From positions 8,206,001-8,270,000 of the forward strand of contig NC_134677.1 in the NCBI RefSeq assembly GCF_024713945.1: DNA of 64,000 nt. Reading direction: 5' to 3'. Positions 1 to 15,200 of this stretch are shown piece after piece. A program made the position numbers and the translations under genes. The notes beneath the pieces are model-generated. The model saw only the letters and a list, made by a program, of their open reading frames with translations, ran no database searches and was not told where the DNA came from. The first letter of the stretch is position 1, and every line of letters starts with the position of its first letter. Source of the stretch: Dermatophagoides farinae (lineage: Eukaryota; Arthropoda; Arachnida; Sarcoptiformes; Pyroglyphidae).

Positions 1-1049
1 ATTGTCCATTTCAAATGGCTAACGATTATCATCGAAATTCAATCTAAATCGATTAATTTTTGCAATTTCATCGTATAAACTATTTTTGTTCCTGCGTATT
101 GATGGTATTGGTCGTTAAATCACTTGCGACATTGGAAAGTTGTCCCGTGTGTGTGTTTGTCATTCAGTGATTTTTTTCATTGGGTTGTCTGTAACCAGAA
201 TGGAAATAAGTATTCAGCCCAAAGCTATATACCCACACACACACCATGTGTTGTTGTTGGTCGGTCACGAACTTGAACGAAATTCATCCAAACAACAGGA
301 TAGGTACGCGCACTAAATAAAGCAGAAAATCTATCTGAAAACAAGGACATTGTGCATGTATTTTTGGGGTTCATTGTCTGGTTTCTCTGGCTTTTCAGGT
401 TCATTGTTTTGTCGTTCGAATCGAATTTATGTCTACCACTGGATCATAATGATTCAATTGGAAAATTAAAACTAAAAATTAGGAAAACATTGAAAATTAT
501 CATTTTAATTAAATTTCATTTTATAATTAAAACAAAAAAAATCACGACTATCTGATTGAATTGTATGTTTGAAATATGGAATTAGGCCAAGATGTGTGTT
601 ATGCATTCGAATGAGATCAATTGTATTGACTATTTGAAACAGAAACCAAAAAAAAACTAGATTAGGGAATCAGTCAATAAGAAAGAGAATCCAGAATTAC
701 AGACAGAAGATAGAGTTAGACCAAAGAAAATATTGTATATAGTTCAAGAATATTTTGTTTTTTGGGTGTGGATTTGAGTATTTGTTCTATTTGAGAAAGT
801 TTGAGTATTCGATGTGTGTTTGTGTGTCTTTCGTCGTGGCACAAGATGAAATCCAATTGAATCGGCAACTATTTTGAGACATAATAAACAGAAAAAAGTG
901 GAATTTGTTTGACAGCCATTGGTTATTGCGGATGATCATAAATATGCGAATCTTTTTTCATTTCTCCTGTCCATGGCTAATTTTAATTAGAAATAGATCG
1001 ACATTATTTTTCTCAGTGAAAAATCTTTAAATCGAAATTTGAGACAAAC
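1..1049. other. Intron of sDscam, possible tail exon at the very edge
   Basis: No convincing coding sequence. It holds short TG runs (about 150-165 and 810-825) and CA runs (about 230-243). On the minus strand an acceptor-like AG at 20-19 is followed by six open codons (PFEMDN) in the required phase 0, so a cytoplasmic exon of sDscam may begin at position 18 and continue outside. The polypyrimidine tract is weak, so this is only a suggestion. Confidence 0.4.
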
Positions 1050-3083
1050 CTGCATATTTTCATCCAGTGGCATTGTAGCATATGCAGTCGGAAATATATT
1101 GCCTTGTTCGGTCATTATTAGTGGTTTGCCACTGACTTTATCAAAATCAGCATATCTTGGCGCCGTATTATATCCGGTAAATTGTTTGCTTGCACTCTCT
1201 AGGATAACTAGTGAAATTGAGGATAAAAGATTAAAAATGTCAATCTGTTGATTGAAATAACCGATGAACAATAACTTACGACTACTGGCAGCTGCTCGAT
1301 GTTTCGCACGACGGACACAGACATATGCAATGACCATAATGATGACTACGATTACGAATGCAGTCAGTATTGGAATAGTGAATTCTGGTTGCATATAATA
1401 TGGACTTTCATAGTAGTGGTTCATCAATTTTCCTTGGAAATTCAATCGTTCTGTTGAAATCAAAAAATCAGAATTTGGGTGAAATTTGAATAACAGAAAA
1501 AAAACGAAACAAACCTCCAATGGTTTTAGTGTTGACAATATTACTTGGATCAGAGAAACCGAAACGATTAACAGCCGTCACAAATATTCGATAATTAGTG
1601 CCACTTTCCAGATTGACCAATGTATGCGTATAGATTGGCATCGATGATTGTTCAATCGATGGAGCTGATGTTGCCAACGAACTAAATGGTATTTCATGCC
1701 ATCTTGGTTCACCTTCTTTTTGATATTGTAACGTATAGCTAATGATTGAGCTGATCGAGTCCCGATTATCTCGTTGATGCCATCGTAATGAAATTGAATT
1801 TGTCGTGGTTTCCGTTGCAATTAGGTGTTGTGCAGGTGGTAGATCACCATCAAGTGTACGTGCCAGCAATACATGAGATTGCGGTCCACTACCGGCCATA
1901 TTATAGGCTTTGATAACGATTTCATACTCCGTACCACGCGATAGGTCGCGTAGAAAATATTCATAAACTTCACTTTCGATTTGATTGGCTTCCGTGTATT
2001 TGGAATCAATGGATTTCAATGTATAAGCTGTATTTGTATCGTCGGCTTTTCGAAAACCAACATAATAACCTTTGATCAGGCCATTCCAGAATTCTTTTGG
2101 TGGTGCACGCCATGTAATCCGAATCGTAGTTGGCCCTTTTGGTTCGACATTTATGTCATTCGGTGGTGCACTTGGTTCCTCTTCACCAGTGAAAAATGGC
2201 ACCGTTTCCGATGGTTGACTGCGTCCAACCTCGTTTTCGGCAATAACGGACAACTCATAGGACAATCCAGGATTGAGATTTTTGATCAAATACGATGTCT
2301 GCGAACTGCTAACATTTACTTCATGCAATCGATGTGGAGCACTTTGTCGACGCCAATAATGTATCAGATATCGGGTGACAGGTGAATTGCCGTTCTGAGG
2401 ATGACGCCATGAAACACTAGCTGAACGTGACCATACTTCATTGATTTTAACGTTAACCGGTGAACTTGGTTCTTCTACCACTGATAATTTTATGGTTCGA
2501 TCATCACGACCATGTTCATTTTCAGCGTCACATTTATATATTGCGCCATCACTTTTCTGCACCGGTCGAATAGATAGTTCAGAAATGACCCCTTGACTGG
2601 TGGAGAAATGCGTCATTTCATAATGATGACTCAATCGGTCCAATTTAATTCCATCTTTTGTCCAACTTATTGTGATTGGTCGATCACCGGTAGCATTACA
2701 TTTCATGACAATTATATCGCCTTTTTTCACTTGTAATGAACTGTATTTTTCATCAAATCTCGCCGGTACTTCAAATCATCAATTAAAATCACTGAAAATC
2801 TTTGGACGAATTCGCTTACCATTATAAGAGATGGTGATACTTTTCCGTAATGCCTCACCGATGCCATTATCAGCCACACATTCGAAAGTCAATGTTTGTC
2901 GACCATTTTTTTCATTTTTGATCAATTTACTCAGATCCAGAATTTCATTTTCGATCGTTTTACCTGACGGTGTAATCCATTTGATTTTCGGTTTCGGTAG
3001 ACCATCGGCCAAACATTCCACGGAATATTCTTCACCCATACGTAGATTCACGTCTTTCGGCTCTTTGATCCAGCTAGGTGGAA
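1050..3083 (-). CDS. sDscam: sDscam constant region: Ig2, Ig3, three FNIII, transmembrane, start of cytoplasmic tail
   Basis: Shared 3' part of a shortened Dscam, a single-pass homophilic adhesion receptor. Exons by hand: 3083-2820 (Ig2, begins V-PPSWIKEPKD), 2768-1515 (Ig3 beginning VPARFDEKY, then FNIII-1, -2 and -3 in one exon), 1450-1280 (linker, membrane span around FTIPILTAFVIVVIIMVIAY, then RRAKHR stop-transfer), and 1198-1050 (or 1207-1050, same frame) for cytoplasmic sequence ending ...PLDENMQ. The first three introns are phase 1, so any cassette ending in phase 1 joins at the 3083 acceptor. The domain order corresponds to Ig8-Ig9-FNIII of canonical Dscam, so the variable cassette domain corresponds to Ig7. 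After 1050 (phase 0) the coding sequence must continue; the remaining cytoplasmic exons are mostly beyond the left edge. Family assignment is from remembered domain patterns. Confidence is high for Dscam type and good for sDscam. Confidence 0.9.
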
Positions 3084-3187
3084 CTGGAAAAAAATAAATT
3101 CAAATTGATAATTTGAAAAATGTTAGTTTATCTCGACAACAAAACATTCGAAAAACAATTGTGGCACTGTTCTTGATCATTAGACAC

Positions 3188-3533
3188 CTTGAACACTCAG
3201 ATATGAACTTTGGCTGTCAAAACCGCCTTGATTATGGACTGAACAAGTATAATTTCCCGAATCATCAGATGTTAGATTTTCAATCAATAAAGTAGACATG
3301 AGATTATCTTTTCGGATCTGCACATGGTCGTTTTCGTGGATTTCACGGCCATTTTTCATCCAATTAAATGAAAACGGTGAATCACCAAGAATAGGCAGAC
3401 AATTCAAAAATAAACGAAAGCCTTGTACTTGTGTTTGAAAAGAACTCCATGTATTCAATACAACAGGATTCTGGTGAGAAATTGAAATTAGTAAAAAAAC
3501 CCAAATGTTTCGCAATGAAAACATGTTTGTCAA
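3188..3533 (-). CDS. sDscam: sDscam alternative cassette C12 (signal peptide + variable Ig1, single exon)
   Basis: The cassette nearest the constant region. One uninterrupted exon: ATG at 3533, hydrophobic leader MTNMFSLRNIWVFLLISIS, then an Ig domain with first Cys in LFLNCLP, Trp in FNWMKNG and second Cys in DDSGNYTCSV. The donor CAAG|GTGTC is at 3188 in phase 1, and the constant acceptor is 105 bp away. Most other cassettes split leader and Ig over two exons; here that intron is absent. It belongs to the 'GFD...L.VQG' subgroup (compare C3, C4, C6, C7). Its own promoter element lies 91 bp upstream. An alternative reading as a constant domain is unlikely because it starts with its own leader. 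Confidence 0.82.
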
Positions 3534-3623
3534 CAGTGAAATATTTCAATGGTCAAGAATGTATTTGTCATCATTGTTAGGTTATAAAAGATGAAAAATC
3601 CATAAAAAAATTTTCCCAACAAA

Positions 3624-3642
3624 TAGCGCCACGATTTGAGTG
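3624..3642 (-). promoter_or_regulatory. Conserved cassette promoter element, C12
   Basis: Gene-sense CACTCAAATCGTGGCGCTA, 91 bp before the C12 start codon. It carries the exact octamer TGGCGCTA shared by C4, C6, C7, C9, C10 and C12. Confidence 0.65.
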
Positions 3643-3670
3643 AGGAACAAATGATCAAATCAAACCAAAC

Positions 3671-4019
3671 CTTTAACCAAAATATTGGTGGCAATCGAAT
3701 CTTGACCATATTGATTTTTCGCATGACATTCATATTTCCCACTATCACTTGTTTGAACATTTGATAGAGAAAGCAACGAGATTCGATCTTGATTATCAAT
3801 TTTTAGATTTAATCGTTCCATAACTTTTTCGCCATTTCGATACCAATCGAAAAAAATTGGTTTCGAACCACTTATCAACACACACGTTAATGGATAGGTC
3901 ATATTTTCAATCAATTCATGTAGATCACCATTAAATGGCATCAATTTCGGTGGACCAGAAATGGCGATTGAAATTATGGAGAAAAATGTGAAAAATTTCA
4001 AGAAAAACATTTTCGTCAT
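3671..4019 (-). CDS. sDscam: sDscam alternative cassette C11 (single exon)
   Basis: ATG at 4019; a leader of about 20 residues (MTKMFFLKFFTFFSIISIAI) runs without an intron into the Ig domain: GPPKLMPF start, Cys in YPLTCVL, Trp in FFDWYRNG, second Cys in DSGKYECHAKN, end ATNILVKG. Donor AAAG|GTTTG at 3671, phase 1. The place where the other cassettes carry a phase-1 intron corresponds here to the first base of a glycine codon (G|GT), so the intron looks precisely removed. A second in-frame ATG lies 9 bp downstream of the first. The promoter element is 105 bp upstream and of the same subtype as those of C9 and C10. Confidence 0.85.
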
Positions 4020-4123
4020 TCAACGATAAACATGTGTTATGATTGAAAGATTTCAAAGACTGAAAATTTACTACCGAAAATGTAGAAATTGGAAAAGCCA
4101 GAAAAATTCAAAATAAGCAACAT

Positions 4124-4142
4124 TAGCGCCGACTTTTAACCA
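4124..4142 (-). promoter_or_regulatory. Conserved cassette promoter element, C11
   Basis: Gene-sense TGGTTAAAAGTCGGCGCTA, 105 bp before the C11 ATG. It differs from the C9/C10 element at one base (C in place of T in GT[T/C]GGCGCTA). Confidence 0.65.
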
Positions 4143-4188
4143 TGAATTCAACATAGTTTCATCGATATGATTTTTTTCTCCGTCAAAC

Positions 4189-4593
4189 CTTTTATAACAA
4201 ATTGTGTGGATGTCGATGCAGTTCCATATGCGTTTTTAGCAATACATTCATATGTGGCCGAATCAGCGGCAGTCAGACTGGTCATCGTTAGTAATGAATA
4301 ATGATTTGTATTTTCCATACGAACATTTGTTGTCCCGGAAAATTTTTGACCATTTTTATTCCATTCAAAAAAAATTGGTTTAGCACCGGAAAATAGATTA
4401 CAAGTCAATAAGTATGTTGAATTTTCCAAAAGTTCAACAATTTTTTGAAGTGGTACTAATTTCGGTTCGTCTGAAATAAAAAAAAATTTAAAATGGAAAA
4501 TTGAAATGTTCACCATTCGAAAATACCTGCAAAGACAATCGATAAAGCGTGATTAACGGAAAGAATTTGCACAAAAAGATTGAAAAGATGCAT
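4189..4593 (-). CDS. sDscam: sDscam alternative cassette C10
   Basis: Two exons. The leader exon 4593-4527 (MHLFNLFVQILSVNHALSIV..., ending GCAG|GTATTT) is followed by a 56 bp intron. The Ig exon 4470-4189 begins DEPKLVPLQK and contains YLLTCNL, FFEWNKNG and DSATYECIAKN, ending VIKG before donor GTTTGA. Both junctions are phase 1. The start was chosen because this ATG gives the leader the phase shared by all cassettes; an ATG 9 bp upstream (4602) is in another frame. The Ig domain is very similar to that of C9, so the two are a recent tandem duplicate. Confidence 0.85.
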
Positions 4594-4717
4594 TTTATCA
4601 TTGGATAATTTGTGAACAAAACTTGAACAACAACCTGACTGAACTAAATGAATTTGGAATTTAAGCTACAACAATAAAAACAACAAAAAAAAATTTATCC
4701 ACAATGACCAACAAATC

Positions 4718-4736
4718 TAGCGCCAACTTTTAACCA
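4718..4736 (-). promoter_or_regulatory. Conserved cassette promoter element, C10
   Basis: Gene-sense TGGTTAAAAGTTGGCGCTA, 125 bp before the C10 ATG. Identical over 19 bp to the C9 element. Confidence 0.68.
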
Positions 4737-4777
4737 AAAACGTAAATATTTCAAAATGATCGAAAACATTCTTCAAC

Positions 4778-5180
4778 CTTTGATTACAAGTTGTGTGGAT
4801 GTCGATGTACTTCCATGAGGATTTTTTGCGATACATTCATAAATCCCCGAATCAGTGATGGCTAAATTTTTAATCGATAGTAATGAATAATCATCAGTAT
4901 TTTCGATACGAATATTCGTATTTGTCGATAATTTATGTCCATCTTTCATCCATTCAAAAAACACAGAAGAACCAGATGCTAAACTGCAGAGTGCACTAAA
5001 AGTAGATTTATCCACAAGTTCAAAACGTTTTTGTAGTGGAACCAATTTAGGTTCATCTAATGAGAGAGAAAAAGAGTTTAGAATTTTTTTTAATGAAAAA
5101 ATAAATGTCAACAAACCTGCGATGACGAAATTTAAGGTAAAACACAAGAAAATAGTTGAAAACAACATTTTGAACAACAC
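4778..5180 (-). CDS. sDscam: sDscam alternative cassette C9
   Basis: Leader exon 5180-5117 (MLFKMLFSTIFLCFTLNFVIA, donor GCAG|GTTTGT; a second in-frame ATG at 5168 could also serve), 60 bp intron with a CTCTCTCTC tract, Ig exon 5056-4778. The Ig starts DEPKLVPLQKR, has Cys in FSALCSLASGSS, Trp in FFEWMKDG and second Cys in DSGIYECIAKN, and ends QLVIKG at donor AAAG|GTTGAA. Closest relative is C10, which shares DEPKLVPLQK and the STST run before the last strand. Even the intron is read-through in this cassette, so an unspliced transcript would also give a leader plus an Ig domain. Confidence 0.85.
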
Positions 5181-5265
5181 TACTCAAATGGATTCAAACG
5201 AATGAAACACAATGAGGACAAACACGAGAAAAATTAGTGTGAAAAAATCGACAAATTCAAGCAGA

Positions 5266-5284
5266 TAGCGCCAACTTTTAACCA
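5266..5284 (-). promoter_or_regulatory. Conserved cassette promoter element, C9
   Basis: Gene-sense TGGTTAAAAGTTGGCGCTA, 86 bp before the C9 ATG. Identical to the C10 element. Confidence 0.68.
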
Positions 5285-5318
5285 CGAATAAAAACTCAAT
5301 GAAACAGAAAAAAAGAAC

Positions 5319-5730
5319 CTTTTACATTCAGTCGAAAAATCATGCTATCAGTTCCGTAAGCATTACGGACTTGGCATGCATAACGGCCAGAATCATTTCT
5401 GTTGGTTGTTTGAATTTTTAAAAACGAAAATTGTTGATTAATTTCAATTTTCAAATTGCTGGTTTCACGAAGTGGTTGTTCATCTTTAAGCCAGGTGAAA
5501 AATACGGGTTCAGAACCAGAAATAATACTACAGCTCAACAGTTGAAACGTATTTGCAATCGGTTCAACATCAACGAGGACATTTTTATTGATTTTAGGTG
5601 GATCTACAAAATTTTAAAAATGTAAAAAAATTAATTTCAAGTTTCGCAAATTCATTAATCGAAAATGAACATTACCTTGAGCAAGTCCACGCGAGATGAA
5701 AAAGCTGAACAAAATAAATATTCGAAACAT
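5319..5730 (-). CDS. sDscam: sDscam alternative cassette C8
   Basis: Leader exon 5730-5676 (MFRIFILFSFFISRGLAQ, donor CAAG|GTAATG), 72 bp intron, Ig exon 5603-5319 beginning DPPKINKNVLVDVEP. Ig landmarks: LLSCSIISGSEP, FFTWLKDEQPL, NDSGRYACQVRN, end FRLNVKG at donor AAAAG|GTTC. Junctions are phase 1. The promoter element 109 bp upstream is a variant (TCGCTA in place of GCGCTA). Confidence 0.83.
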
Positions 5731-5838
5731 TATCGAAAAATTGGTAAAAAACACCTCCGATGATTCACAATAGATTTTTTTTGCAATGAAATAACGAATG
5801 AAACACAGTAAAACAGTATTTCTTTTCAACAACAAATC

Positions 5839-5857
5839 TAGCGACACGTTTTGTTCA
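5839..5857 (-). promoter_or_regulatory. Conserved cassette promoter element, C8 (variant)
   Basis: Gene-sense TGAACAAAACGTGTCGCTA, 109 bp before the C8 ATG. The octamer is changed at one base (TGTCGCTA); the CGCT core is kept. Confidence 0.55.
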
Positions 5858-5886
5858 AATTTATGACTATTTCTTGTAGTAGTCAC

Positions 5887-6310
5887 CTTTAACTTGAAGC
5901 ATCGACCATTGTGAATCGATACCGAAACGATTTTGTACCGTACAGGAGTAATTTCCTGCATCATCAATTTTAATATTTTTGATGGTGATCGTTGAAAAAT
6001 CATCATCAACATCAATTTTGATTCGTGAATCCGACGATTGGGGAATGGAGTGGCCATTTTTCGTCCAAAAAAATTTCAATGGCACTACTCCACTGAAAGA
6101 GTTACAATTCACAACGAATCGAGAATTCATGGGTTGTGAGTATAAATTTTTAAATTCAACCAAACGAGGAGCATCTATTTTTTACGGGGAAAAGTTGGAA
6201 AAGTCACACAAAATCAATTTAAAATAACTGAAAAGCTTACCATTAGCGATTACAAAGTTTTGATTCGCTAACAACAAATCAAAAACAACCAAAATGAATG
6301 GCCAAAACAT
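5887..6310 (-). CDS. sDscam: sDscam alternative cassette C7
   Basis: Leader exon 6310-6241 (MFWPFILVVFDLLLANQNFV..., donor AATG|GTAAGC), 66 bp intron, Ig exon 6174-5887 starting DAPRLVEFKN. Ig landmarks: RFVVNCNSFSG, FFWTKNG, DDAGNYSCTVQNRFGIDS, end MLQVKG at donor AAAG|GTGACT. Phase 1 at both ends. It belongs to the GFD/GID subgroup together with C3, C4, C6 and C12. Confidence 0.85.
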
Positions 6311-6445
6311 TTTTAAAACACAAACACGAAAATCAACAGAAGAGACAAATAAACCGATGGATGTGAAATTGCAAAAGAATTGCCATTGATTTTTTTTGAA
6401 TTGTTTTATGCAAAAAAAAATTTATGACACTCAAAATGAAAGAAT

Positions 6446-6464
6446 TAGCGCCATATATTGGCAG
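6446..6464 (-). promoter_or_regulatory. Conserved cassette promoter element, C7
   Basis: Gene-sense CTGCCAATATATGGCGCTA, 136 bp before the C7 ATG. The last 14 bases before TA match a generic CTCF consensus (CCASYAGRKGGCRS) at 12 of 14 positions by hand count. Confidence 0.65.
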
Positions 6465-6493
6465 ATAAAAAACATTGAATAAATTGTTCAAAC

Positions 6494-6903
6494 CTGTGAC
6501 GGTTAGTTGAATCCACAGTTTGTCGAATCCGAATTTATTCGTAACAACACAAGAATAATTTCCCACATCATTGGAATCGATATTTCTCAATGTAAAAAAA
6601 GAGAAAATATCTTTGTTTTCAATTGTCGATCGTCCAGTATTGAATACTTCAACACCATTCTTGAACCATTGGAACCGTAATGGTTTACTGCCTTTGGCAA
6701 CATTACAAGTCAACACAAGGTCTGAACCTTTGGTTTGTTCATGTTGATTTTGTGAATAAACTTTAACGAGAATCGGAGATTCTAGAATTGAAAAAAATGA
6801 ATTAATTCAAGCTTAAAAAACATGAACAAATAGACTTACCATCACTGTTAGCGGATGAAATCAAAATGATCAAGGCGAAAAACTTGAAAATCAAATTCAA
6901 CAT
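6494..6903 (-). CDS. sDscam: sDscam alternative cassette C6
   Basis: Leader exon 6903-6840 (MLNLIFKFFALIILISSANSD, donor GATG|GTAAGT), 58 bp intron, Ig exon 6781-6494 starting ESPILVKVYS. Ig landmarks: LVLTCNVAKGSKP, FQWFKNG, DVGNYSCVVTNKFGFDK, end QLTVTG at donor ACAG|GTTTGA. It is nearly a copy of C4: about eight differences over the last 70 residues, the same 19-bp promoter element, and a shared ATCACACGAAATT stretch just before the ATG. Confidence 0.86.
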
Positions 6904-7002
6904 TTTCACTAGCAAATTTCGTGTGATAAAACATTGAATGTGAATAAAACAATCGAAAAAAAACATTTTCGACGGGAAAATCAAAATCAAAATTTCAATA
7001 TT

Positions 7003-7021
7003 TAGCGCCACGTTTTGGTGG
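7003..7021 (-). promoter_or_regulatory. Conserved cassette promoter element, C6
   Basis: Gene-sense CCACCAAAACGTGGCGCTA, 100 bp before the C6 ATG. Identical to the C4 element. Confidence 0.68.
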
Positions 7022-7083
7022 AAATTATTAGTTTCAAATCTTGACCCTAATTGCACACCATGATGATTAAATTAAAAGCAAAC

Positions 7084-7490
7084 CTTGTATGACAAGTTTT
7101 GTTGTAATCGAGTCGGATCCATGAACATTTCTGGCATTACAGGTATAGCTGCCTGTATCGTTTGGATTCAAACTTTTGAATGCAAGTGATGACATTGTAT
7201 CATGATTATCGATTTTGTACTCGGTCGACGATAGTTTCTTATGATCATCTTTGTACCATTCGAAGAATATTGGTTTTGATCCAGATAAAATGGAACACGG
7301 TAATATGTACGATGCATCGACCCAAAGTTTGACTTCGGATGTAGGAAATTTATTCAAATTGGGCTTTGCTAAAATCAAAAATAGTTATTAAAGAAAAACA
7401 ATTCCAGACAAGTCTCACTAAATTACCAGCATCGACTGAATGAAAATGGAAAATTGAAAAAATCACCAATAATAAAATCATCATAGCCAT
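7084..7490 (-). CDS. sDscam: sDscam alternative cassette C5
   Basis: Leader exon 7490-7427 (MAMMILLLVIFSIFHFHSVDA, donor GCTG|GTAATT), 58 bp intron, Ig exon 7368-7084 starting AKPNLNKFPT. Ig landmarks: YILPCSILSGSKP, FFEWYKDD, DTGSYTCNARNVHGSDS, end KLVIQG at donor CAAG|GTTTGC. Phase 1. It is of the FFEW/xDS subgroup and sits between the two near-identical cassettes C4 and C6. Confidence 0.85.
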
Positions 7491-7597
7491 GACGTTCAAC
7501 AACAACAACTCATGTTCAACAACAAGAAAAACAATCGTTTAATCAAACCATTTCAATCGAAAAAATTTTGAAAATCGCCAGTGGATTATGGCAATAT

Positions 7598-7616
7598 TAG
7601 CGCTACCTTTTGGCCC
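7598..7616 (-). promoter_or_regulatory. Conserved cassette promoter element, C5
   Basis: Gene-sense GGGCCAAAAGGTAGCGCTA, 108 bp before the C5 ATG. The octamer is changed at one base (TAGCGCTA). Confidence 0.6.
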
Positions 7617-7647
7617 ACAAAAAACATTGAAAAAAAATTATTCAAAC

Positions 7648-8062
7648 CTGTGACGGTTAGTTGAATCCAAAGTTTATCGAATCCGAATTTATTGGTGACA
7701 ACACAGGAATAATTTCCACGATCATTTGAATCAATATTTCTTAATGTGTAGAGGGAAAAAATGTCTTTAGTTTCGATTGTCGATTGTCCAGTATTGGATA
7801 ATTCAACACCATTTTTAAACCATTGGAACCGAAATGGTTTACTGCCTTTGGCAACATTGCAAGTCAACACAATATCTGAACCTTTGGTTTGTTCATTTTT
7901 CGAATAAAGTTTAGCAAGAACTGGAGATTCTAGAATTAAAAAAAATAAATTAATTCAAGCTGAAAATGATTGACAAATAGACTTACCATCACTGTGAACA
8001 GATGAAATCTGCAATAAAATCCAGATAAACAAAACAAAAAATTTGAAAACCGAATTCAACAT
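7648..8062 (-). CDS. sDscam: sDscam alternative cassette C4
   Basis: Leader exon 8062-7987 (MLNSVFKFFVLFIWILLQIS..., donor GATG|GTAAGT), 57 bp intron, Ig exon 7929-7648 starting ESPVLAKLYS. Ig landmarks: IVLTCNVAKGSKP, FQWFKNG, DRGNYSCVVTNKFGFDK, end QLTVTG at donor ACAG|GTTTGA. Its twin is C6. Confidence 0.86.
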
Positions 8063-8172
8063 TCTGAATGAATTTCGTGTGATCATAAAAAATGTAAAGT
8101 CTTAAGCCAGCATTCAGATTAGCAGCAGCAAATCAAAAGGCAAAGTTCAAAACCAAGATTTTGAAACAAAAT

Positions 8173-8191
8173 TAGCGCCACGTTTTGGTGG
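8173..8191 (-). promoter_or_regulatory. Conserved cassette promoter element, C4
   Basis: Gene-sense CCACCAAAACGTGGCGCTA, 111 bp before the C4 ATG. Identical to the C6 element. Confidence 0.68.
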
Positions 8192-8231
8192 AAATTAAGA
8201 ACAGAAAATTTTTTTTTATTTAATTTCAAAC

Positions 8232-8653
8232 CTTGAACTTGAAGTAATGACCATTGAGCATCGAATCCATCATCATTGATAACTGTGCAAGAATAATTGC
8301 CCGAATCATTCAATTCAATATCAGAAATCGTGAGAATAGAATAACTATGTTTTGTTTCAATTTGAATTCGATCTAAGTGCATCGATTGTTTATCAATGGT
8401 TAAACCATTCTTCATCCATCGAAATCGTAACGGGTGAGATCCAATATATGCAGCACAATTCAGAACAAAAGATGAATCTTTTGGTTGAATAATTTCATTA
8501 TGAAATCTTGTCACTTTGGGAGCCACTGAAATTGGAAAATTCAGATACATCAATCCATCAACAATAATCAATCTGATTCAATGAAAAAACCAACATACCA
8601 CCAGAATGAACAGATTTTGTTAAAATTAACAAACAAATTGACTGGATAATCAT
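8232..8653 (-). CDS. sDscam: sDscam alternative cassette C3
   Basis: Leader exon 8653-8599 (MIIQSICLLILTKSVHSG, donor GGTG|GTATGT; a GT three bases upstream keeps the same phase), 73 bp intron, Ig exon 8525-8232 starting VAPKVTRFHN. Ig landmarks: FVLNCAAYIGSHP, FRWMKNG, DSGNYSCTVINDDGFDA, end LLQVQG at donor CAAG|GTTTGA. Phase 1. Confidence 0.85.
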
Positions 8654-8774
8654 TTTTCAAACATAAAAAAACAACATTCTCACCGCTCAGGAATGAAATA
8701 GACCGATGGATAAATAAATTCAGAATCCATGGCCACACGAGAAAGAAATTGGAATTCAAATCAAATCAAGATTG

Positions 8775-8793
8775 GAGCGCCATATTTTGGCCA
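8775..8793 (-). promoter_or_regulatory. Conserved cassette promoter element, C3
   Basis: Gene-sense TGGCCAAAATATGGCGCTC, 122 bp before the C3 ATG. Only the last base of the octamer differs. Confidence 0.63.
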
Positions 8794-8806
8794 AAAATAC
8801 AGATAC

Positions 8807-9216
8807 CTTTGATCAGAAGTCTAGTCGATGTTTGATCCTGGCCGAATGCATTTTTAACCAAACATGTATAAGTAGCGGAATCATCGGCATTTAATCTTTT
8901 CAGTGTAAGTGCCGAGAAACTTTCTTCGATCACTAATTTGTATTGATCAGATTTGGATATTTTTTCGCCATTTTTTGTCCATTCAAAAAACACAGGTTGA
9001 CTACCGCTAATCATTGTGCAAAAAATCACATGTGTTCGATTAGCAACTAGCACAACTGATTCAGCAAGTTTCTGCAGAATAGGTTTCTCTGAAATGGATT
9101 CCATTAGCAATCAATGTAACAGATAATATCAATATACCTGCATCAGCTGAATTGGCCTGATTCAATGGCCAGAAAAACAAACAAATTCCGAAAAAAATTT
9201 TCAGTAAAATCAACAT
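8807..9216 (-). CDS. sDscam: sDscam alternative cassette C2
   Basis: Leader exon 9216-9138 (MLILLKIFFGICLFFWPLNQ..., ending ADA, donor GCAG|GTATAT), 49 bp intron, Ig exon 9088-8807 starting EKPILQKLAE. Ig landmarks: HVIFCTMISGSQP, FFEWTKNG, DSATYTCLVKNAFGQDQ, end RLLIKG at donor AAAG|GTATCT. Phase 1. Its promoter element (9337-9355) matches the general CTCF consensus better than the array consensus. Confidence 0.85.
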
Positions 9217-9336
9217 ATCGAATGGGATTGATTGAAACAGTGTGAACAAAACAACACAAACTTGATGGAAAAAGAATGATCGAATAACGATCGTTTTGGA
9301 TAAATTAAAAATTGCTAAAATCAATGTTGAGATTTT

Positions 9337-9355
9337 GAACGCCACCTGGCGTATC
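9337..9355 (-). promoter_or_regulatory. Divergent cassette promoter element, C2
   Basis: Gene-sense GATACGCCAGGTGGCGTTC, 121 bp before the C2 ATG. The inner part CCAGGTGGCG fits the core of a generic CTCF motif, while the terminal GCTA is lost. Confidence 0.5.
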
Positions 9356-9394
9356 CTGACACCACCACTATCATCATCATTATGAATTATTTAC

Positions 9395-9822
9395 CTTGAA
9401 CACGTAGCTTAGTTGTGGTTGAATCATATCCATATGCATTACGCGCAATACATTTATAAATAGCTGAATCATATTGATCCAAACGTGGTATGGTGAGCAT
9501 AGAAAAATTATCCGTCGAATCTATTTTCCAATTCGTTGCTTTAGTATGATCGGGATCGATTATTTGGCCATTTTTGGTCCATTCAAAATGAACTGGTTGT
9601 GTTCCTTGTAATAAATTACACAATATCACATGAGATATGTTTAACATTGATTGACTTTCAATCGGTAGATCGACAAGTTTTGGTCTTTTATCTTTGAAAG
9701 AAGCCAGAAAAATTTCATTATTCAGTAATTGATAATGAAGAGATATAAAAAACAAACTTACTGCATTCGATTGATATTAAAGTGGCCAATAACCAAACGG
9801 AGATTGTCGAAATAAACAACAT
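9395..9822 (-). CDS. sDscam: sDscam alternative cassette C1 (most 5')
   Basis: Leader exon 9822-9762 (MLFISTISVWLLATLISIEC, donor TGCA|GTAAGT), 70 bp intron, Ig exon 9691-9395 starting NKRPKLVDLP. Ig landmarks: HVILCNLLQGTQP, FEWTKNG, DSAIYKCIARNAYGYDS, end KLRVQG at donor CAAG|GTAAAT. Phase 1. No further Ig-coding ORF of this type lies between here and 13.5 kb, so this appears to be the first cassette. It is the one cassette without a GCGCT element upstream. Confidence 0.84.
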
Positions 9823-9940
9823 AATGAATTTGGGAGAATTTTTTCGATTTTTCTGTCGAAAAACAAAAATTCGAATTTTTTTAGTTTATTTCTCTTCTAC
9901 AATAGATGGCACTAAAGTGGTCATAAAAGTCCATAATGTG

Positions 9941-9955
9941 GCTCCCTCTTGTGTA
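9941..9955 (-). promoter_or_regulatory. Candidate cassette promoter element, C1
   Basis: Gene-sense TACACAAGAGGGAGC, about 119 bp before the C1 ATG, the same spacing and orientation as in the other cassettes. It lacks GCGCT but resembles vertebrate-type CTCF sites (AGAGGGAGC). A second candidate, AGATGGCACTA on the plus strand at 9904-9914, lies closer to the ATG. Confidence 0.3.
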
Positions 9956-10367
9956 AGATGTATGAATTTTAAAGAATTTGAATTACGAAAAAAATGATTT
10001 TTTTTTCTATAGAAAAAAATCAATTTTCTATCATGAAACAAAACTATAAATTTGATCGATTAGTATTTATTTTTTATAAACATCAAGAATCATGAAAAAT
10101 TCAACACAACGTACAATAAATATGATGAAATAGCACGTAGTATTGATTGCTGCACACAGACACACACACACCAACACACTTTGATGCATATGAAACATTA
10201 CTGAATGAAGATCAATTCTGATTGACCGAACTACATTGACTGGCCACCAAATAGCATTGAAGATGCTTGGGCATGCCTTTTCATCGTCATCGTCTGATTC
10301 TGTTATATTCAGCATGCCTATTTATACTATTTTCAACTATGGATGATCATAGATTTGCGTGTGTCTG

Positions 10368-12271: not shown

Positions 12272-15200
12272 TCAATTGATTGGAACAATTTCCTTTTTAT
12301 GGTGATGCTTTGGATGATGGCCATCCTCATCGATGAATTGTGATTGAAACAAAAAAAAAAATTTTTTTCCCATCAAACACAACACAATAAGCGCCACACA
12401 GTGACCGGAATCTGAACTAAAATGGGTGCAACATGCAAAGAATTCTTTTTCGAATTTCAATCGATTCGAAAAAAATTTTTTGTTTAATTTTTTTTAACCA
12501 TAAATACAATGGAATGTAAAATTATGAACAATGATGATGGTGATGATGATGACAGTGATGAAATTGAACAACAGCATCTTTGATGATGATGATGATTGGT
12601 TGTTTTCATTCGACATTTGAATCTGATTGGATTTTCGATCATAATCTGTACACATGTGTATGTGAGTGAAAAAAAAAAAACAAAAAAACAAAACGAAATC
12701 AATATAAAAAAATAAAAAAAAAACATCAACAAATTGATGATCATAAACCTATAAAGCTGCCATTAGTTGGGTGGTGAATATCAGAAAAAAAACGACACGC
12801 AAAAAGACATTTTTCATATACATTGTATATTTATACACACACAGCAAAATTATTCATGTTTTTTTTTCTATCACTAATTGATATCGATATATATTAATTT
12901 TAATTTAGATAATTATAATCTTGTATGATTGAATTTTGTTCATTTTCGATTCCTAAAATCAATAGTGCAAATCAAATTTTTGGCCATATATTAAATGAAC
13001 AGAGCTTGAAATCAATCATAGCTATTATGATGATGATGATGATGATGATCATTAGAATCATCGTAGATTGTCTTGTATCACGAAATCAAGCCGAAAAATA
13101 AATGAATGAATGGAATGAACAAATGAAGAATCAATTCATGGACAGAAAAAGACAGAGATAGAATTTTCAATCAAAAGGGTGTGTCCATTTGATTTCAGTT
13201 CTGGTGTTATGTTGTTAAATGTGACAATTAGAGAGAGAGAGAGAAAAAAAGTGAATAGTATAATGATCAACACCTACTGATCATTGATGGTGGCCAAAGT
13301 TAATAATATCGTCGTCATAAATCAATTAGTCCTAATGCATATATACGCACACACACACAGTCCGTGTGCGTTTGGCGTGGTTGCCAAAAAAAAAAAAAAA
13401 AATGGCACGAATGCTAATTTACCATTATATATCCACCAACATCCGTCTCTCTCTTTTTCTCTAAATCTCATTAACAACAACAACAAAAATACAATGAAAA
13501 TTCAATGATAATGGACATGAAAAAAACTTACTTGTTGGAAATATGATTTTTATTCGTTTTTTTCCTCACATATAATGTACCATAAAGTTGTATACGACAT
13601 TCATAAATTGTACCAGCCATTAATATCGTATCGATTGGTCGTCGAAACCATGCACTATATAGACAATGGTGATGATGATGATTGACAATTTCATTTTGAC
13701 AATTATTTATCGTAGTAACATTTATCGATGATGGTGATGATAATTCTGAATAATTTTTTTGCTGTATGAATATCATTCTTGGTTCTGGATAAACATCTTG
13801 TACTAAACATTCTAATGCAAATTGATCGGCACTTGATTCAACAAAATGAAATTGGAATAAACTTGGAGGCACTGAAATAAAAAAAAAATTGATTATTATA
13901 GAAAAATTACATCCATAAATTCAAACAGACACGAACCATAAATTATCATTTGACTTTGACGGCTATCCTGATTGGCAATCGATGATATTACACATGAATA
14001 ATTACCCGATAATGATAATGGTACCACAATCATCGATTGTTCTTGTCGTAATGATATGATATTTAAACGTAATGCACGATATTTTGAATATTGATCATCA
14101 TTTATAGTGAAATTCATATCAAAATATGGCCGTATTAATTGTCCAACATAACGTATATTTGATTCCGGTATCCATTGATAGATTGGTTCCGGTGAATCAT
14201 TATGAAACCAACGGATGACTAATTTAACATCACCAGAATCATAACTATATGAACAATCTAATGTTAAAATGGTGTTATTTCTTGCATCAATCATTCGCGG
14301 TATGGATGATTGAATGATTTTTACACATTCAATTGCTAAATGAATGGCATAAAGAAAAAAAAAGTGAAAAAAAAATCTTTTCAACAAAATAATGGTGTGA
14401 ACATCTGTCATTGGAAATTTAATCCAAAAAATAAAAAAATTCTGACATTGAATGTCCATTAGTGTATGTGACTTTTACATTCATTCAAACGAATCATCAT
14501 CATTTATGAATTTCAACAAAATATAAGGAACGAGTTTTTTTTTTGCTGTTTGAAAAATTCAAGAATCCCTGAGAATATTTACCAGCTGATGACTCATATA
14601 GACAAAAATGTGTCATCCAAAAAAAAAACGATGACAAATTTACTGTTTCAAGTTTTTGCATCAAATCAATGGAACAAATCATCATCATCGTTGAAATTTC
14701 ACTATCAGATTTTGATTTGAAAATAATTGCTAATGTTGAATATTGAAAATAAAAATAAAAAATAAATGGAAAGTGGAAAAAAAACGCAAGAGAATTCAAA
14801 CAGATGCCGTGTGTATGTGTGAGCGCGTGCGTGCAGAATTCATGAAAGATTCATGGACGTACGAAGATTTTGAGAAAAAAAAAGTTATCGTCAACATTAG
14901 AATACCTATTGATTACTCTATGGAAAGGTTAGCTAATTAACAACATTGGATTGAAATAGAATCATCATCATCATCATCGTTTTTTTGGCAATGGATTCAT
15001 TATTGTATATTTTTCATTTTGGTTAATGAAAACCTTTGAAAATGCGAATCAATATGATATTTGGCAATTTTATCATCAACATCATTGTTGGTTGGTTGGT
15101 TGGTTTGTCTAAAAATGAATCAATGAAGCGAGAAAAAAAAACATTTGAAATTGACAAAAACGAAAAGAAACGAACGATAACATTTTTCATCGTTTCTGGT

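Follow-up and report, generated by a model that had tools for sequence, protein, structure and literature searches.

We analyzed a 64,000-nucleotide stretch of the Dermatophagoides farinae genome (i.e., contig C1:8206001-8270000 of a 62.4-Mb assembly in 22 contigs; hereafter, the window), in which the 12 tandem cassettes of an sDscam-type gene are each preceded by a short, gene-oriented element resembling the binding site of CTCF. A group-2 allergen gene in this genome matches Der f 2 at 119 of 120 aligned residues, in agreement with this species. The sDscam-type gene lies on the minus strand (about 1000-9957 of the window); its cassettes, each with its own start codon and comprising a signal-peptide exon and an immunoglobulin (Ig) exon, are followed by constant exons. 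The same arrangement (i.e., one gene-oriented site per variable first exon) was found at all 41 cassettes of three sDscam arrays in this genome, at a near-constant distance in the 34 cassettes for which the distance was measured. The element is almost certainly real and constrained, and CTCF probably binds it; we also consider it likely that these sites are CTCF-bound promoter elements of the sDscam cassettes.

On the minus strand of the window, every element lies upstream of the signal-peptide ATG of its own cassette and, for C2 to C12, just past the Ig exon of the preceding cassette. Exact copies of TGGCGCTA occur in C4 (8173-8188, CCAAAACGTGGCGCTA; exact copy at 8180), C6 (7003-7018, CCAAAACGTGGCGCTA; 7010), C7 (6446-6461, CCAATATATGGCGCTA; 6453), C9 (5266-5281, TTAAAAGTTGGCGCTA; 5273), C10 (4718-4733, TTAAAAGTTGGCGCTA; 4725), and C12 (3624-3639, TCAAATCGTGGCGCTA; 3631). 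Four other elements carry the words TGGCGCTC (C3; 8775-8790, CCAAAATATGGCGCTC), TAGCGCTA (C5; 7598-7613, CCAAAAGGTAGCGCTA), TGTCGCTA (C8; 5839-5854, ACAAAACGTGTCGCTA), and CGGCGCTA (C11; 4124-4139, TTAAAAGTCGGCGCTA). These ten were located by a word scan, by a matrix derived from the array, and by a human CTCF matrix (as its best hit in C8 to C12), and they align without gaps as [ACT][CT]AA[AT][AT]NN[CT][AG][GT]CGCT[AC]. Our recount agrees with the initial annotation, which had reported the exact word in 6 of the 12 cassettes, GCGCTA in C5 and C11, and CGCT in ten. C1 and C2, which had been thought to lack the element, in fact have diverged sites in sense orientation, detected with the human CTCF matrix at 9939-9954 (ACACAAGAGGGAGCCA; P = 1.2e-6 per position; 116 bp before the ATG) and 9337-9352 (ACGCCAGGTGGCGTTC; P = 4.5e-6 per position). 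Adjacent elements are 500 to 607 bp apart, and the distance from the end of the core to the chosen ATG, previously given as 86 to 136 bp, was remeasured as 97 to 135 bp across the 12 cassettes.

The word TGGCGCTA occurs six times in sense and never in antisense orientation within the 7.5-kb array, compared with four copies in 203 kb of non-array DNA when both strands are counted. Motif discovery on the twelve inter-cassette segments, as the initial annotation had proposed, yielded a CTCF-like motif: expectation maximization (EM) on both strands gave CCAAAAGGTGGCGCTA with a log-likelihood of 111 (120 starts), far above the values of 40 to 45 obtained for six letter-shuffled segment sets (25 starts each). 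This motif is close to the CTCF consensus CCASYAGRKGGCRS, as printed in a figure legend of PMC6746451. By hand, C3 to C7 match 11 to 12 of the 14 positions of this consensus, at the upper end of the 9 to 12 counted earlier, and C8 to C12 match 8 to 9. For C1, EM chose not the sense site but an opposite-facing CTCF-like site on the plus strand at the 5' end of the array (9896-9914, ACAATAGATGGCACTA; human CTCF matrix P = 6.4e-6), which faces away from the array and may mark a boundary. The copy array described below has a counterpart of this site at contig C1:8126615 (minus strand; P = 4.2e-5). A lone array-like CTCF-type site in gene orientation, CACTGTGTGGCGCTT, lies at 12389-12407 (minus strand), about 2.4 kb upstream of the window array.

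Two other arrays extend the comparison to 41 upstream segments. A near copy of the window gene with 16 cassettes (the copy array, L; contig C1:8126600-8137000, plus strand) lies tail-to-tail with it, and a more diverged sDscam gene found by tblastn contributes 13 cassettes (array B; contig C1:3.962-3.970 Mb, plus strand). A matrix built from the ten window elements alone recovered 15 of the 16 copy-array elements and 12 of the 13 array-B elements. The remaining two, in the corresponding cassettes L_10 and B_7 (GGATGGCGCTC), fell below the threshold of this matrix and were seen by eye; both are the best human CTCF matrix hits in their segments. In the control for the array matrix, some non-array places equaled the weakest array elements (8218406, score of 17.1; 8124329, score of 15.9). 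Genome-wide, CCAAAANNTGGCGCTA with at most one mismatch gave 42 matches, compared with 4 for the backwards pattern; by our own count, sDscam arrays and their partial copies hold 25 of the 42, each of them oriented as the gene is, and 5 of these 25 are window elements that had helped define the pattern. Partial copies of the first cassettes of array B, elements included, are present at contigs C2:5249818-5251551, C3:3931399-3933095, and C4:3732033-3733491.

The cassettes and arrays are paralogous and some of their flanks are nearly identical, as would be expected if the element were a functionless trace of recent duplication. When 37 promoters were aligned on the element and the 15 with flanks of <70% aligned identity were kept, the 16-bp core was 73% identical while the flanks were 31% identical. 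CTCF columns 7 (A), 15 (C), 17 (C), and 18 (T) are invariant in all 15 diverged elements (the core T is column 12), and the C, G, C, and T of the CGCT box are kept in 15, 14, 15, and 15 of them, respectively. Since the core is far more conserved than these diverged flanks, we reject shared ancestry as a sufficient explanation and give it next to no credence. In the copy array, the tblastn search found no Ig exon for the counterpart of cassette C1. Visual inspection of the matching place showed the opposite-facing site but no start codon and no sense site. In this single case, the cassette and its element are both missing, and either state may be the ancestral one.

The distance from the element to the downstream ATG is 94 to 135 bp (standard deviation [SD], 11 bp), whereas that to the upstream exon is 12 to 217 bp (SD, 45 bp). 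These values describe 34 of the 41 cassettes; the seven omitted have no upstream exon (C1, L_1, and B_1), are absent from the ATG set (L_10 and B_7), or have an implausible automatic ATG (B_2 and B_12). Because the distance to the ATG is steady while that to the upstream exon varies, the element behaves as a promoter element. The same figures bear on the idea that it is an RNA-level signal near the 5' splice site of the upstream cassette, steering splicing or RNA pairing. Such a role would suit the position of the C2 to C12 elements, which lie only 12 to 61 bp past the upstream Ig exon match in the window, and the complex splicing of sDscam reported in passages of PMC4835542. However, the element keeps its distance to the ATG and not to the upstream exon, and C1 has an element despite being the most upstream cassette detected in the window. 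We thus reject a splice-site role, which seems highly improbable.

Among 17 promoters tested for promoter words, no TATA-like word was found within 150 bp downstream of the element (0 compared with 6.1 expected from letter shuffles), and the initiator signal TCA[GT]T[CT] occurred 16 times compared with 7.1 expected but was spread out. The best explanation of these sequences is a putative TATA-less promoter for each cassette, of which this element is the sole conserved component seen.

The resemblance to the CTCF site was evaluated with the human matrix in all 41 segments. The element provides the best sense-strand hit in all 41 segments (39 of 39 when C1 and C2, themselves defined by this matrix, are excluded). 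At a fixed threshold of one hit per 30,000 positions of non-array DNA, 23 segments were flagged in sense and 1 in antisense orientation. None of 300 column-permuted matrices reached 23 (maximum, 10), and reversed or complemented matrices flagged none of the 41 segments. Matrices rotated by one or two columns still flagged 10 to 21 segments, because rotation leaves the matrix nearly intact. The bare consensus CCASYAGRKGGCRSYR flagged 15 segments in sense and 3 in antisense orientation. The match to the CTCF consensus extends over both halves of the site with the correct spacing.

A different DNA-binding protein (e.g., another C2H2 zinc-finger protein or an E2F- or YY1-like factor) could instead use the element as a core-promoter or activator site that is CTCF-like only in its GGCGCT half. 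The variable middle columns (10 and 11), the poor fit of C8 to C12 to the human matrix, the many C2H2 exons in the genome (at least 125 matches to CTCF fingers), and the status of the element as the only constant feature of promoters that have no TATA-like word would all be in keeping with this. Against it stand the agreement over both CTCF halves and their spacing, the failure of the permuted, reversed, and complemented matrices, and the fit of C1 and C2 to CTCF even though they lack the shared word. As candidate binders, YY1, E2F, NRF1, DREF, M1BP, ZIPIC, Su(Hw), NF-Y, SRF, and Pita were rejected on the basis of thirteen typed patterns, which flagged 0 to 2 of the 41 segments in sense orientation; the zeros of the shortest patterns are weak evidence, because such patterns could hardly pass the threshold. 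On balance, we regard another protein as an unlikely binder.

Several observations nevertheless weigh against assigning the element to CTCF. The human matrix used throughout was not drawn from a database, and the cassettes and arrays are paralogues, so that the counts are not independent. With this matrix, 18 of the 41 segments have a site below the threshold, C8 to C12 score only -1.0 to 3.6, and at a loose per-segment cutoff of 0.05 the window shows hits in 7 of 12 segments in sense but also 5 of 12 in antisense orientation (7 and 1 at a cutoff of 0.02). In vertebrate CTCF sites, G at column 10 is nearly invariant; here, it is present in only 7 of the 15 diverged elements and in 6 of the 12 window elements (C1, C2, C5, and C9 to C11), although finger 5, which reads this column, is unchanged in the mite protein. 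The relaxed column 10 lowers the claim of a vertebrate-type site rather than that of a mite CTCF site. Moreover, by our own count, GATGGCG occurs in 7 of the 17 near matches outside the arrays and in none of the 25 inside them; since it is frequent only outside, the array elements do not merely represent the genome-wide type. The array type may be a weaker or locus-specific CTCF type or the site of another protein. The 11-mer AGATGGCGCTA has 52 copies genome-wide, compared with 0 for its backwards form and 2 to 8 expected, an excess that might be that of a genome-wide CTCF site. Base preferences in the flanks of these 52 sites were limited to weak ones upstream (column 5 is C in 18 of the 52), and some copies are paired or lie in nearly identical surroundings.

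The initial annotation had stated that a genome without CTCF would refute its reading and had proposed a comparison with the zinc fingers of the mite protein. The genome encodes an 11-finger CTCF orthologue at about contig C6:653.4-655.9 kb, which matches human CTCF with an E value of 1.7e-101. At the contact positions (-7, -5, -4, and -1), fingers 3, 4, and 5 are identical to those of human CTCF (4/4 each; 12/12 in total), and the other eight fingers match at 1 to 3 of 4 positions (finger 6, 1/4; finger 7, 2/4). CTCF structures assign the GGCGCT stretch to fingers 3 and 4, columns 10 to 12 to finger 5, and columns 7 to 9 to finger 6. The GGCGCT stretch is the best-conserved part of the array elements, and columns 7 to 9 are mostly AAA or ATA in place of SYA. 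Passages in reviews state that finger 3 binds the CGCT box and that fingers 3 and 4 jointly read its CpG.

N-terminal to its fingers, mite CTCF carries SVYDFND, which resembles the YDF of human CTCF (residues 226-228), described in the source passages as needed for cohesin retention. A search with the mite N-terminal stretch found no human CTCF chain, so that the likeness consists of three matching residues and their location N-terminal to the fingers, taken with the context of the motif in the human protein. A STAG gene is also present in the genome. A DNMT1-type methyltransferase gene with RFD and catalytic domains is located at contig C2:6133230-6136254, and a second methylase-type gene is located at contig C3:3370184-3371135. 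Methylation gating of CTCF at the CGCT box is possible given the DNMT1-type gene; the CpG observed/expected ratio of 1.03 in non-array DNA (i.e., no depletion) speaks against heavy germline methylation.

On the basis of these features, mite CTCF would bind the element facing in the direction of the gene, about 95 to 135 bp before the signal-peptide ATG. Bound CTCF might then stop cohesin and bring a single promoter at any given time into contact with a common enhancer, in the manner of the vertebrate protocadherins. By the vertebrate convention, CTCF at sites so oriented would stop cohesin arriving from the constant-exon side, and it is by this stop that a promoter would be brought to the enhancer. 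The sites of the window array face those of the copy array, their nearest elements being 74 kb apart, an arrangement that would suit the two arrays as natural anchors of a single loop. Between them, plus-strand sites facing the window array are present at 8143938 (an exact AGATGGCGCTA), 8167656 (score, 18.9), and 8192466 (score, 16.1), and weaker minus-strand hits are present at 8154845, 8189342, and 8207898 (scores, 10.2 to 12.6). Neither between the arrays nor beyond array B did the scan give a confident enhancer-side site. The DNA past the constant exons of array B, up to 3985000, has only one weak facing site (3974963; score, 10.2).

In each of the three arrays, site strength as scored with the human matrix declines from the distal cassettes toward the proximal ones (Spearman coefficients of -0.91, -0.86, and -0.64; the arrays are homologous and not independent). 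Under loop extrusion, such a gradient could help nearby and distant promoters to be used more evenly. Alternatively, CTCF may insulate the packed promoters from one another locally, or serve as a pausing site between them, rather than act as a loop anchor for promoter choice. The spacing of only 500 to 607 bp and the lack of a confident enhancer-side site would accord with this, and the dipteran literature stresses CTCF as an insulator more than as a loop anchor. However, the uniform orientation and the YDF-like motif before the fingers fit a role in stopping cohesin. Local insulation is a distinct possibility, if the less favored one, and belongs within the CTCF explanation rather than competing with it; that looping drives sDscam promoter choice is close to an even call, falling slightly short of it. 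With regard to the CTCF-based promoter choice proposed in the initial annotation, the CTCF resemblance is well supported by sequence (i.e., matrix fit, orthologue, and oriented sites at 41 of 41 cassettes), whereas we infer promoter choice via cohesin loops.

The window gene exhibits the features of sDscam, i.e., tandem 5' Ig cassettes followed by Dscam-type constant exons with Ig, FN3, and transmembrane portions, with predicted splicing between them. Its cassettes fit the published sDscam-alpha layout of single-Ig, two-exon cassettes. The 12 variable Ig exons span 3186-9689 on the minus strand according to tblastn (Pfam I-set for the C10 exon), at 9393-9689 (C1), 8805-9089 (C2), 8230-8523 (C3), 7646-7930 (C4), 7082-7366 (C5), 6492-6776 (C6), 5885-6172 (C7), 5317-5598 (C8), 4776-5057 (C9), 4187-4471 (C10), 3669-3953 (C11), and 3186-3458 (C12). 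The constant exons, delimited from open reading frames (ORFs) and Pfam at approximately 1000-3085 (minus strand), encode Ig domains, three stretches matching both Pfam fn3 and FN3_DSCAM, and a transmembrane segment recognized by eye. Structure matches of the gene include 3dmk (a DSCAM isoform, at the end of its eight Ig domains) and 7y6o and 7y9a (Down Syndrome Cell Adhesion Molecules); the top-scoring match is a Titin chain, a common outcome for Ig domains.

Two overlapping matches in the copy array (8132389-8132665) were merged into a single cassette, and the Ig matches lying past the cassettes on the downstream side (2479 in the window; 8136622, 3970915, 3972238, and 3973241 elsewhere) were assigned to constant exons. 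The copy array has no match to the Ig exons of window cassettes C1 and C2, yet it has cassettes that are absent from the window gene. An ORF with an Ig-like appearance lies upstream of the window array at 13896-14459 (minus strand). A search for stray mite DNA among bacterial and archaeal genome contigs found no relative.

Tandem alternative promoters are the source of recognition diversity in two well-known families, the chelicerate sDscam genes and the vertebrate protocadherins. In the latter, promoter choice depends on CTCF; the presence of a site of the CTCF type at each sDscam promoter makes the mechanism of sDscam choice directly testable and also provides a natural series of sites of differing predicted strength. 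The mite and vertebrate lineages may have arrived at this way of choosing promoters independently, which, if true, would constitute a strong example of convergence in gene regulation. The broader proposition is that oriented CTCF sites were recruited separately in arthropods and in vertebrates for tandem-promoter choice in cell-identity genes of different protein families, with the mite tail-to-tail arrays facing each other as loop anchors and a distal-to-proximal strength gradient; in our estimation, it is somewhat more doubtful than not. In the titles, abstract openings, and main-text passages covered from freely accessible papers, we found no published description linking a CTCF-type element to sDscam promoters.

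Like the mite arrays, the sDscam genes of Mesobuthus martensii and other chelicerates are described in passages of PMC4835542 as having tandem 5' cassettes with a promoter before each, and reporter activity was reported there for fragments preceding the cassettes of one sDscam gene. The terms "motif," "CTCF," and "conserved sequence" are absent from its main text. In PMC5775551 (Cao 2018), CTCF appears once, in a reference title, and section 13 suggests a regulation distinct from protocadherin looping; the mite element points in the opposite direction. PMC8787164, as represented by its passages, discusses CTCF for protocadherins and splicing for Dscam. The CTCF sites of the mammalian immunoglobulin heavy chain (IgH) VH domain, according to passages of PMC6746451, share with the mite elements a locus-specific subconsensus, conservation above the surroundings, and a single orientation. 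However, they belong to a V(D)J recombination locus, where they lie by recombination signals, upstream of leaders, or between genes, and, unlike the mite elements, not at a fixed distance before alternative promoters.

The closest parallel is the conserved sequence element (CSE) of the vertebrate clustered protocadherins, which, in passages of PMC7811963 and PMC4978886, likewise consists of one gene-oriented site of the CTCF type, contains a CGCT box, and precedes most variable first exons by a nearly constant distance. The mite array belongs to an unrelated gene family and lineage, its spacing is about 95 to 135 bp rather than about 200 bp, and its upstream half is CCAAAA in place of CCASYA, with a relaxed column 10. 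CTCF binding and looping have been demonstrated for the protocadherins and are proposed for the mite array. In Pcdh-alpha, the exons carry a second, exonic site. The kind of device is already familiar from the protocadherins, and what is new is its presence in an arthropod Ig-family array.

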